64,000 bases of DNA. It comes from Hypomesus transpacificus (Eukaryota; Chordata; Actinopteri; Osmeriformes; Osmeridae). Made by a program: the position numbers and the translations under genes. The stretch lies in the NCBI RefSeq assembly GCF_021917145.1, contig NC_061077.1, forward strand, positions 11,230,623 to 11,294,622, in the 5' to 3' direction. The notes below the pieces were generated by a model that was given only the letters and a program-made list of their open reading frames with translations, was not told where the DNA came from and made no database searches. This document shows, piece by piece, positions 9,122 through 60,170 of this stretch; within the stretch, counting starts at the first letter, position 1; each line of letters opens with the position of its first letter.

Positions 9122-9205
9122 GTCGCCCATGTATTCCTGTAGAGACGTATTTGCGATTGTTAATACTGAACACAAATTCGGTTCTACAGGGTACATATAG
9201 ACAAC
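9122..9205 (-). ncRNA. mir10: microRNA mir-10 precursor hairpin
   Basis: The minus strand at 9193-9171 carries UACCCUGUAGAACCGAAUUU followed by GUG, the exact mature miR-10b sequence. The opposite arm at 9153-9132 contains an eight-base perfect complement to CCUGUAGA, then further pairing to form the miR-10-3p strand. Flanking arms pair out to about 9122 and 9205, giving a hairpin of about 84 bases with a 17-base loop. It sits between hoxc5 and hoxc4, 0.6 kb upstream of hoxc4, the usual position of mir-10 next to group 4 genes. miR-10 represses several Hox messages. Mammals lack a HoxC copy, so this supports a fish origin. Confidence 0.96.
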
Positions 9206-9277: not shown

Positions 9278-9417
9278 CCGGGTTTCCCAGATTCGTTAAG
9301 AAGCTCTTAACGCTAAGAGCGTCTTAAGAACGTTCTAAGAGCGCTGTAAAACGCTCTTAGAACGTTCTTAAGAAGATCTTAGCGTTAAGAGCTTCTTAAC
9401 GAATCTGGGAAACCCGG
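9278..9417. repeat. 140-base palindromic element, MITE-like
   Basis: The left end CCGGGTTTCCCAGATTCG is the exact inverse complement of the right end, and the arms stay largely complementary inward through AAGAAGCTCTTAACG-type segments to a short centre. The whole unit can fold into one long hairpin. A shorter relative lies at 50929-50975 with the same ends. No coding capacity is present, so it is probably a non-autonomous inverted-repeat element. A clean target-site duplication is not evident. Confidence 0.8.
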
Positions 9418-15274: not shown

Positions 15275-16727
15275 TTACTTGTTTAATTTCAACTTTAAAT
15301 CCTTCTTCCATTTCATGCGTCGATTCTGGAACCAAATTTTGATTTGTCTTTCATTCAGGCAGAGGTTATTGGCGATCTCAATTCGCCTACGGCGAGTGAG
15401 GTACCGGTTGAAGTGGAATTCTTTCTCCAACTCCAGTGTCTGGTAGCGGGTGTAACTGGTCCGCGACCGTTTACCGTCCGATTCTGAAGTGGCATTAGAA
15501 AAATGCAAACTTTAAAAAACCAATGATAAATTAATTTGACACACAAATTCCACGTAGTAGGCTAACCCATATCACATTTTATGGAAGTACACAGTATACA
15601 GTGGACTTAAAGATGACATTGAAATTGTGAAATGCAGTGAGAAGTGAAAGAGGTTTGAGTGAAAAACTGGAGTATCAGTATGTTATTTGTAGATATTCTA
15701 TGTATCTAGAAAAATGATAATGTCAATTATTTTAGTAGACCAATGCTTTAAACAAAGGTGGATAACATATCGACTTGAAAAATGCTAGCGCATTACTAAT
15801 ATTACGTTGTTGCAACTAGTGGTTCATCCATGAGAACAATCCAAGGTGAAAAGTTCAGTATTAGGTCAGGACAGAGTCTCCCGAAAGGGTTCAACTTAAG
15901 GCTACTCATTTTATAGTACAGCATACAATAATCTATGAACAAACTGAAATGACAGGCTTTAGTTCGACCAAAATTATAATAAAACATGAATCTAAGTAGC
16001 CTACTTCTATATAATTTTTGTTTCTCTTATCCAATTATACCATCATAAATCTCTCTGCAGATCACCTCTACTCAGTAACAGAACAGGTTTACGAGCAATA
16101 GATGCCTTTGTCATAAAATTTATGACTGTGAGTTTTATTATTTCCTGCTTTTGGCCTATAAAACTCAAGAGGAAATGTGAATGGGCAGAGGAAGTATTGG
16201 GACGAAAGAGTGAATGAGGGAAGACACAGTAGCCTACATTAGAAAATAACTTTACCGTGGCTCATGTGTAGCTTTTTCATCCAGGGATAAATCTCTGGCT
16301 GCTGTTGACTGTCTTGTTGGTGATGGTTCAAAATATTCTTTCGTTTGACTGTGTGCACAGTTTCGACCTTCATCTTGCTTTCTTCAATTCTGCCGTTGGA
16401 TTTTTTTGTCAGTTCCATGCCCCTGTCAATCTCTTCGTCTAACAGCCCATTACAACAGTTGTTAAGCCCGTTCGCCTCCACGGAGCTACTGGAGACCACT
16501 GCCAGCTGTGGTCGTGTTGGTAGATGAGTATCCGTGTTGTAGCGCAAGATAGTTTTCATCTCTTCTCGTTCAAAAGAGTTCGCGATAGGAACAGGAGAAG
16601 TAAATGTTCCGTTGAAATGACGACCATTGAAACCGTGAAGATTAGATTGATGGCGCTCTGAAAGAGAGCTATAGCCTCCAACATTCTGCATATTGTATTT
16701 AGGTTCTTCGTGCGTTTGCCTAAACAT
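15275..16727 (-). CDS. hoxc5: Homeobox protein Hoxc5, diverged, start codon shifted (two exons)
   Basis: Hoxc5 is a nuclear group 5 Hox transcription factor. Exon 1 is 16727-16256 and exon 2 is 15483-15275, giving 226 residues (human 222). The hexapeptide YPWM is at residues 147-150, followed by KKLHMSH. The homeodomain (about 161-220) reads [12 protein letters not shown] and matches group 5. The amino-terminal region is strongly diverged. Upstream of the ATG the frame stays open and aligns without gaps to the family opening MSSYxxxSFYKQ, but the expected ATG at 16751-16749 is TTG. The first ATG is nine codons in, so the SSYF-type activation motif would be lost. The tail is short, KLKLNK. The 772-base intron has normal splice sites; I did not find mir-615, which mammals carry here. 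Either the TTG is used (234 residues) or the product is amino-terminally trimmed. Confidence 0.9.
16111..16125. promoter_or_regulatory. Palindromic Hox/Cdx-type site in the hoxc5 intron
   Basis: TCATAAAATTTATGA is an odd-length palindrome made of two facing TTTATGA motifs, the type bound by Cdx and posterior Hox proteins. Another TTTTATTA lies 10 bases on, and GCCTATAAAA about 20 bases beyond that. It sits in the exon 1-proximal part of the intron and may mark an intronic enhancer. Confidence 0.3.
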
Positions 16728-16980
16728 TTTAAAAGACAAGTAGCCCCCCAAAAAAGTTAGGCTACTTGTCTAACTAACAACAAAATAAAAAATGATAACA
16801 GTTCATGGAGCAGCCTTGCTAAATAAGCAAAAGTGTACTAAAAAATACATTTCTTTGAAGCTGATTTGAAATTCAGGTTTGTCTTGCCCAAAAATAATCC
16901 AGGATTTATAGGTGGGGGTGTTACATTTGTTGTACTTGATTCGACGCGCGCTGCCCAAATATGGGGTAATTGAAAGGGAT

Positions 16981-50600: not shown

Positions 50601-53600
50601 ACATGAATGATACATTTCAATTGACATACAAACTAAAACGTGGCAGCTGACACTATTTTGAAGAAGGATCCACAACACATTTATTTGCAGGCCTTTTTAT
50701 TTCACATTTATGCTTTCACATAGCCTATTCTTTGAGAGGTTTGCATAAGATGCTCTGTTGGCCTTTGCGTAATTGTAGGGTTTACAGCAAATGTAGCAAA
50801 ATAGAACGTACAATTACTATTGCGTGTTTATATAACTAATAATTGACGTGGAAGTGAATTAGCTTGTCAGATTTACAGTCCTATGTTCATTAGCTTATCA
50901 TAGTTGGCAACAACAATAATAACGACAAGGGTTTCCCAGATTCGCTAAGAAGCTCTTAACGAATCTGGGAAACCCGACCAATGACAATAACTAGAATCAT
51001 ACTTAAATTTATATCACAACTCTAAAAATATAAAAAATACGTTAACAAGCAAATTTGATTCAATTTGGTCGTCCTTACATTTGAAACATCTCATCACACA
51101 CCATTCATCTTCTCACACGCACTCTCTTCATGCTGACAGTTTAATTTGTTTATGAAAACTGCCATGGTCCAAATACAGGTAGCTTGAACATGCATCCGCA
51201 ACGTTGGCTATTTATTCAACCATCGACACTTATGCCCAAAAACAGAAAATTGTCAACCTAGAATACTTAAGCTAAAATACGGCTTGAAATCCTAATGAAA
51301 CGTTATACTAACAGAAGTCAAACATGTCTATCCCTGGTGTGAAATAGAATCGGGGAGTATCCTAGCCCCCCTTGTGGTTGACATAGAGGCAGTTTCAGAA
51401 TCATCTCGAGGATGTTGACGTTGTGTGGCAGAAAAAGTCCAACAAATCTCACACGTCATCCTCCAGGGCCAAGGTTGGCGGGTGTGACAAGACAAGTCCT
51501 TGATCTCCGCTGTGCACATATCCCTCCCCCTGTCACAGCACACCCTTCTTTCGCATAGACTGGAAGCTGCGGCTTGCAGCCATGGAGGCATTGTGGCCAT
51601 ACACACACATACGCATACAAAGTGTGTTTGTGTATCAAAAATCGCTCGTGCAGACACAAATGAACGCGCCCCCCTCCCCACGCACATGCCAATAACACGC
51701 ACACACAAACTGCAGACTTCTAATATAGACGGGAACGCAAACAACAACGAAAACACACAAACATTACTTATAACGTAATTGAATTGTAGGCCAACAGATT
51801 TCCACTTCTCTACATATTACTGAATGTTACTTACGCAAACCTGCAAAAAATATCAGGTAAAGCTCATGCCAACATGTTATAAACCGTCTCACGCATGAAA
51901 ACATATACATTTTACAGGGACAATAAAGTGTATTTACTGGGCGTGCTAAGGCTGGCAAAGTTACCTGCTGTAGTTTAATGCGAGGGTCAAAGTTGGGCTC
52001 TCTACACATTCCTTTTTCTGTTCCCACTCACTCTCATTGGTTCATTCCCCTCCTGCACACATTTCCGGGCTAAAGGGGCTCCTTGATTCCACTTTATTGC
52101 AACGGGTTAAAGGTGAAGGCCTTGACATTATTGAAGTTCAAAGACTAGGCTACATTTAATTATAAATTGTACTTAATGCACACACGTGCAATCTACATGC
52201 ACACATGTCGACAGAAACTCACAAGAACGCATTAAAAGAAAAGGAGAGAGAGAGAGAAACAGAAAAGAGAGAGAGAAAGTGATTGGACCATTTCCTTCTT
52301 TACCATATTATATTCAGACCACCTGGTCCAATTAGTTAACAATTACTGTAAAAATGGTTAATTTGGAATTTGGAAAGCGTCTAAATGATGCGTGTGGACA
52401 GCTTTGACTTAGCTCTCCAATACGCAATTGTAAGTCTACATGAGAGACGGGGAGCTGGAGGCTGGACTATATGTGAGGGGGTTGGGTGGTTGACGTTGTG
52501 CACAGGCCCGAGTTCATGTTGAAACCTCTTGCCAAGTTTTCTGTTCGGACAGTCTTGCTTGTTTACTATTTACTGCGGAAGTGAATACCATTCCACCAGA
52601 ACAGACGGTGCAATTAAGAGACAAAATAGCCATTTAGTGCCTCTGTCTTTATGGCAGTGTCTAGACTACAAGAGTAGCGATTCCATTTAGTGGGCACTAA
52701 GCAGGTTATCATGTCCCTCCTTTTCTGTGCGTGTCTGAGATGTCGTTTCTAGCTTGTGTGCTTCCTAATGCTCAAACCTCAAACGCGCACTCTTCGAGCT
52801 ATTTGGTCCGTCTATTGAGTGTGCAATGTAAGTGTGTTGGCGTCGTATTCATACCATTCTCCAATCTTCAACTCAATATTTCTATAAAATACATTGATAA
52901 TTTCAGCATTATGCATTTTACCAGATGTGTCAAATATGATCCACATTAAGTCTCCCAATAAAAGTAAATCAATAGTCTAGGTATAGGCTGACACACGCAG
53001 GCCCACTCCCTAAATTCCCAAATGATGTAATCAAAAATACCTGTTGGGTGGTTCACTTTGCTCAGTTCATTATGGCTTCAATAAAACCACCACCATAGTC
53101 TGTTGATTATTTTGCTTTATTTCAGTATTTTTATATTAATGATACACTGGCCCAACATCACTGTCATCTTTTAAAGAAAAAAACACCACATTTTAAGCGA
53201 ATAATTTAAAAGAGTGTTGACATTAAAGCTAATAAAGTTGTTTGGGCAGTGTACAGAAAATAGCAGCGGGAAGGGGTAAAGAAGATTGAAACTGAACATA
53301 TTTACAGTCAAGAATGCACATTGCATAGTCTGTACAAGAAATACATTATTACAGGTTTAACAGGTCACAGTTTTCGATGTTAAAATGTGGGCTTAGCCAA
53401 TTAAAGGCAACTCTGTCTGAAAAGAGGATAAGCTACTGGTACACTAGGCTATACAAGGACCAGAACATTTCAGATTGCCTATATCATGGCTTTTAGATTG
53501 TAACATTATATAGAATGTTCAAATAATAGACCCACCCGTGATGTGTAGCGTACAATATCCAAATAACACAATTAAGAATCTGATAAATAGACGGAAATTA

Positions 53601-60113: not shown

Positions 60114-60170
60114 ATGACATGTAAATGCATTGTTGCATTTACATGTCATTAAACTGCAATAGTGCAGTTT
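60114..60170. repeat. Two adjoining perfect hairpins
   Basis: ATGACATGTAAATGCA (60114-60129) and its exact inverse complement (60134-60149) flank a four-base loop. One base later AAACTGCA (60151-60158) and TGCAGTTT (60163-60170) form a second hairpin, also with a four-base loop. Confidence 0.8.

Follow-up and report, generated by a model that had tools for sequence, protein, structure and literature searches.

A fish hoxc5 gene that has lost its ancestral start and may begin at an internal methionine

We describe a hoxc5 gene on the minus strand of a fish HoxC cluster, contained in a 64-kb stretch of DNA (the window, C18:11230623-11294622, from a genome of 437.2 Mb in 376 contigs). The gene keeps its promoter blocks, splice sites, and homeodomain, and has lost the MSSYVANS start with which its duplicate elsewhere in the genome still opens. 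We discuss where similarity to that duplicate begins, an inverted repeat that brackets the lost start, and the constraint acting on the 2 exons, and we weigh the ways in which the start could have been lost against a reading in which translation has moved to the methionine at codon 9 (Met9).

The locus and its genes

The window holds the HoxC genes c4, c5, c6, c8, c9, c10, and c11 on the minus strand, together with mir-10 and mir-196, the only families returned by an Rfam scan of the window at gathering score. Beyond the window, the same contig continues with c3 and c1 in one flank and c12 and c13 in the opposite flank. Hox genes were named by recognition of their translations; the profile matches themselves identified no more than a homeodomain and the Hox9 activation region. 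On this footing hoxc5 sits between hoxc4 and hoxc6, and it has both an IYPWM hexapeptide and a homeodomain of hoxc5 type, as judged by residues that we take to be diagnostic. The Pfam Homeodomain profile matches exon 2 with E 1.9e-23, and a search of solved structures gave only homeodomains among the best 60 of 119 matches.

The first in-frame ATG of hoxc5 is at 16727-16725. The frame stays open from there until the GT donor (16255-16254), and splicing to exon 2 (15483-15275) would yield a product of 226 residues that includes IYPWM and the complete homeodomain. The window gene shows neither a frameshift nor an internal stop, and its splice sites are intact. Upstream of the ATG, the frame is open only to 16769, where the stop TAG (16772-16770) closes it, and between that stop and 16727 it holds no ATG, as had been claimed in an original prediction made on this DNA. 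Reading the sequence likewise bears out the TTG codon at 16751-16749 that the same prediction had set opposite the ancestral methionine. The features of the gene are as follows.

15275..15483, minus strand: hoxc5 exon 2, with the 60-residue homeodomain (Pfam match), a 6-residue tail, and the stop at 15277-15275
16087..16130, minus strand: intron element common to both hoxc5 copies, inside a blastn block of 71% identity (E 2.8e-31)
16256..16727, minus strand: hoxc5 exon 1, counted from Met9 as the presumed new start, an open frame with IYPWM near its 3' end
16728..16751, minus strand: 8 codons opposite MSSYVANS of the duplicate, gap-free, with TTG opposite Met1; 8/24 bases match, not above chance as DNA
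16734..16745, minus strand: 3' arm of the inverted repeat, GGCTACTTGTCT, read 16745-16734, complementary to the 5' arm at 12/12 positions
16755..16790, minus strand: alternative candidate remnant of the ancestral start, a weakly supported gapped match to the start of the duplicate (score 21)
16760..16771, minus strand: 5' arm of the inverted repeat, AGACAAGTAGCC, read 16771-16760
16770..16772, minus strand: stop TAG closing the hoxc5 frame upstream, read from the sequence
16774..16806, minus strand: upstream open reading frame (ORF) 2, 10 residues, from an ORF scan of the leader
16803..16850, minus strand: upstream ORF 1, 15 residues, from the same scan
16865..16918, minus strand: conserved promoter block with TATAAA at 16910-16905, 74% identical to the duplicate over 54 columns (E 0.001)

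An intact second hoxc5

A genome search with the hoxc5 protein, in which 150 of 172 candidates were scored, gave 119 matches, including a second HoxC cluster on contig C9 whose intact hoxc5 the original prediction had overlooked. This copy opens MSSYVANSLFKQTH and displays the gap-free alignment to a hoxc5 opening better than the comparison on which that prediction had relied. The 2 copies have in common a two-exon structure, a promoter block, an intron element, and a near-identical homeodomain. They differ in that the MSSYVANS start is intact in the C9 copy, whereas the window copy translates no N-terminal MSSY from an ATG. MSSY also opens hoxa5, hoxb5a, and hoxb5b, such that the start is kept in 4/4 of the other Hox5 genes read. 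The ancestral MSSYVANS start of the window gene is lost, and with it, as predicted, the SSYF-type motif. A genome pattern search with a single spelling of the hoxc5 start gave no match and is uninformative.

In the second cluster, neither c1 nor c3 was found past c4 among the scored matches, and the roughly 28 kb beyond c4 on C9 (3 loci) held no homeodomain or PWM motif. Since c1 and c3 were found only beside the window cluster, we assign the window copy to HoxCa and that on C9 to HoxCb on the basis of gene content. In the flank, hoxc3 is open from its ATG through FPWM to the homeodomain, about 2.7-4.6 kb before the window start; its homeodomain looks unusual. hoxc1 follows at about 15 kb before the window start.

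Elsewhere in the genome, contigs C12 and C23 hold 2 hox4 genes, both hoxd4-like; like the HoxC clusters, the HoxD clusters may thus both be retained. A search with a 150-residue human EDAR query gave 3 matches on one contig that cover residues 21-148; one match includes a stop, which may fall beyond the end of an exon, and residues 1-20 of the query were unmatched in the genome.

Where similarity to the duplicate begins

We compared the 2 copies in gap-free blocks of 8 codons. Across codons 1-8, 8/24 bases match (p 0.24; window segments average 6.1), and 7 of the 8 residues are unlike the C9 opening; the protein score of 8 (p 0.018 among 79,038 stop-free 8-mers of the window) rests mainly on a single tyrosine. 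Across codons 9-16, 15/24 bases match and the score rises to 29, and a score of at least 29 is reached by 1 of the 79,038 8-mers, presumably the hoxc5 site itself. On these figures, clear homology to the C9 copy starts at the new ATG, where the window gene reads MFRQTH against LFKQTH in the duplicate, with leucine opposite Met9. The comparison, made in a fixed frame, speaks for the first blocks only: 15 of 18 later gap-free blocks score below zero because the copies fall out of register and diverge further on.

These figures bear directly on the central claim of the original prediction, a change of ATG to TTG, which they do not establish. That the TTG descends from the old ATG is possible. By such an account, an in-place substitution removed the start, Met9 took over, codons 1-8 drifted as leader, and the inverted repeat is later or unrelated. 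The gap-free register, the matches at 5/8 second codon positions, the retained Tyr4, and the protein score agree with this history; the base match over the 8 codons does not exceed chance, and the perfect inverted repeat over the site would have to be a coincidence. We consider the substitution unlikely. The predicted late start is probably right, with one adjustment of the count: 8 codons are lost, and the methionine is codon 9. An assembly error is a far more remote explanation. The TTG falls within T6 and G6 homopolymers at 16755-16744, where such an error could arise, but it is 7 residues of the 8, and not a single base, that depart from the C9 opening.

A relic of the old start might instead lie farther upstream. 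The gapped match at 16790-16755 would put the old start near 16778-16776, and in stretches of 110 nt it is the best match for 3 of 5 query lengths (p 0.09, 0.06, and 0.05); the 2 shorter queries return another match (p 0.27 and 0.12). Among 231-nt tiles of the window, the version with 12 leader bases is equaled by 153 of 1276, and the bare first 8 codons again give another match, equaled by 318 of 1276. Anchored global alignments gave p 0.48 and 0.42, with the register one base off. The alignment is suggestive only, and we did not adopt it as a relic, given that it is unremarkable among tiles and that the short queries disagree.

An inverted repeat around the lost start

The lost start is bracketed by a perfect inverted repeat, also overlooked in the original prediction, with 12-bp arms and a 14-nt loop. 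Perfect repeats with arms of at least 12 bp and loops of 3-30 nt number 5 in the window versus 1 in total in ten simulated windows. The real sequence of the window is thus richer in such repeats than the simulated windows, and one of the 5 lies over the lost start. The words TAGGCTAC (19 copies) and GTAGCCTA (11 copies) are common in the window, and the chance of such arms is therefore somewhat raised. The position of the lost start inside a perfect inverted repeat suggests a small fold-back rearrangement; for this step alone, we would put the chances for and against at about equal. As RNA, the 76 nt around the repeat fold at -22.6 kcal/mol (centroid -22.5; z -4.9), and the 3' end of the hairpin lies 6 nt upstream of the new ATG.

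Other repeats of the window were noted in passing. At 9322-9373, some 120 bases away from where mir-10 matches (9126-9200), an inverted repeat has 22-bp arms without a mismatch around an 8-nt loop, and Rfam assigned no family there at gathering score; perfect repeats with 16-bp arms occur at 50929-50975 and 60114-60149. The most frequent 8-mers of the window include TAGGCCTA (24 copies), with TAGGCTAC and ATAGCCTA (17 copies) as relatives.

Constraint on the 2 exons

The original prediction read the gene as being under relaxed constraint, citing the start, a diverged exon 1, and a short tail. The divergence of exon 1 holds: its identity to the copy in the other cluster is 45/159 (28%) for c5, versus 65-84% for neighboring pairs (c4 90/127, c6 101/132, c8 120/143, and c9 113/173), where the c4 figure covers the readable part only, the start of the C9 gene being masked. 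With human HOXC5 as outgroup, exon 1 before IYPWM carries 33 unique changes in the window copy and 17 in the C9 copy, versus 4 and 3 from IYPWM onward; the excess change of the window copy is therefore confined, on these counts, to exon 1. Over the same part of exon 1, the C9 copy is nearer to the human protein (52/133) than the window copy (36/131), although the former figure shows that it too has diverged. As for the tail, the C9 copy exceeds it by only 2 residues.

Relaxed constraint thus describes exon 1 and not the whole gene. Between the copies, the homeodomain exon differs at a proportion of 0.84 for synonymous sites (pS) and 0.029 for nonsynonymous sites (pN) over 65 codons. The TATA promoter block, the splice region, the intron element, and the exon 2 block are kept in both; the blastn block with the intron element reaches from the 3' end of exon 1 into the intron, and a second shared promoter block lies at 17047-16952 (E 7.6e-7). 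The window gene is probably still functional, and a kept but weakened Hoxc5a protein that lacks the octapeptide would be its most likely state.

The gene could instead be a recently dead pseudogene, in which function ended with the start and the remainder is too young to have decayed. The low identity of exon 1 relative to its neighbors fits this account, as does the pseudogenized HOXC5a reported in the icefish Protosalanx chinensis (PMC7327861). Against it stand a frame that is nowhere interrupted, splice sites that remain intact, the conservation of the promoter blocks and the intron element, and the low pN of the homeodomain exon, and we hold the pseudogene to be improbable to the same degree as the substitution.

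Relocation of the start

Our preferred reading, which we consider somewhat likelier to be right than wrong, is that the start of hoxc5a has been relocated to Met9 in a still working, N-truncated gene that stands beside an intact duplicate; the alternatives are not all exclusive of its core, namely a start at Met9 and a working gene. A small fold-back (template-switch) error of replication would have rewritten the start region, removing the original ATG and leaving the perfect inverted repeat, and would account for the repeat as well as for the missing similarity upstream of Met9. The new in-frame ATG at codon 9 would then have taken over, giving the 226-residue product without MSSYVANS and with hexapeptide and homeodomain. 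As predicted from sequence, transcription would begin some 30 nt downstream of the TATA box and give a leader of about 150 nt, along which a scanning ribosome would pass the 2 short upstream ORFs, open the hairpin, and initiate at ATG 16727. The hairpin may lower translation from this ATG, and the N-truncated protein is probably weaker than the full form. Initiation at the TTG, which had also been proposed, is unlikely: it has T at -3, versus A at -3 for ATG 16727, and for this poor context we rejected it as the main start.

The start could also be provided by an exon spliced into the leader from upstream. HOXC genes share transcripts in mammals, and here TAG at 16770 closes a stretch rich in pyrimidines, with an exon from 16769 being in frame; the local TATA block, which both copies conserve immediately before the exon, counts against this, and we regard the upstream exon as very unlikely, if marginally less so than an assembly error.

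Several points weigh against our preferred reading. Four other inverted repeats of at least 12 bp lie elsewhere in the window, and the one at the start might have formed only after the start was already lost. The whole 226-nt leader folds barely better than shuffled sequences (z -1.59). The gapped match that places the old start upstream is weak, and a strongly diverged exon 1 also suits a gene that is being lost. The 2 upstream ORFs might add to poor translation; the leader of the C9 copy likewise holds upstream ATGs, which are therefore no new defect of the window copy.

Known systems and significance

Among 62 Hox genes of Protosalanx chinensis, HOXC5a is one of four reported as pseudogenized, together with HOXC3a; both are also lost in Paedocypris, and a section heading of the same paper links these losses to the larval phenotype (PMC7327861). 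The HoxCa copy of hoxc5 is thus damaged in that fish as in the one studied here, the difference being that HOXC3a is pseudogenized there, whereas hoxc3 is open here. Given this open hoxc3, with the EDAR matches over residues 21-148 as a further point, the fish studied here is unlikely to be P. chinensis. Decay of hoxc5a is therefore a known kind of event, the decay or reshaping of one Hox duplicate. Titles and abstract openings on hoxc5, start codons, and fish yielded no loss of a hoxc5 start in fish, and the papers listed on template switching held nothing to the point.

The N-terminal octapeptide of Hox proteins is described as widely conserved in bilaterians, and in Drosophila SCR its deletion is said to cut activity less drastically than one point change within it (PMC4025482). 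The SCR alleles affect the same SSYF-type motif, but they are laboratory alleles and constructs of a single species, without relocation of a start codon (PMC4025482).

A copy that lacks the octapeptide and retains the homeodomain is a natural test of the role of this motif. If the fish is an ordinary relative of the icefish, the gene also bears on whether the loss of hoxc5a in icefish is tied to their larval-like adults or began earlier in such relatives. On a bolder and distinctly doubtful extension, one fold-back mutation removed the octapeptide start and the new ATG was stably kept, as an early, shared step toward the icefish loss of hoxc5a, the decay of which would then predate neoteny.
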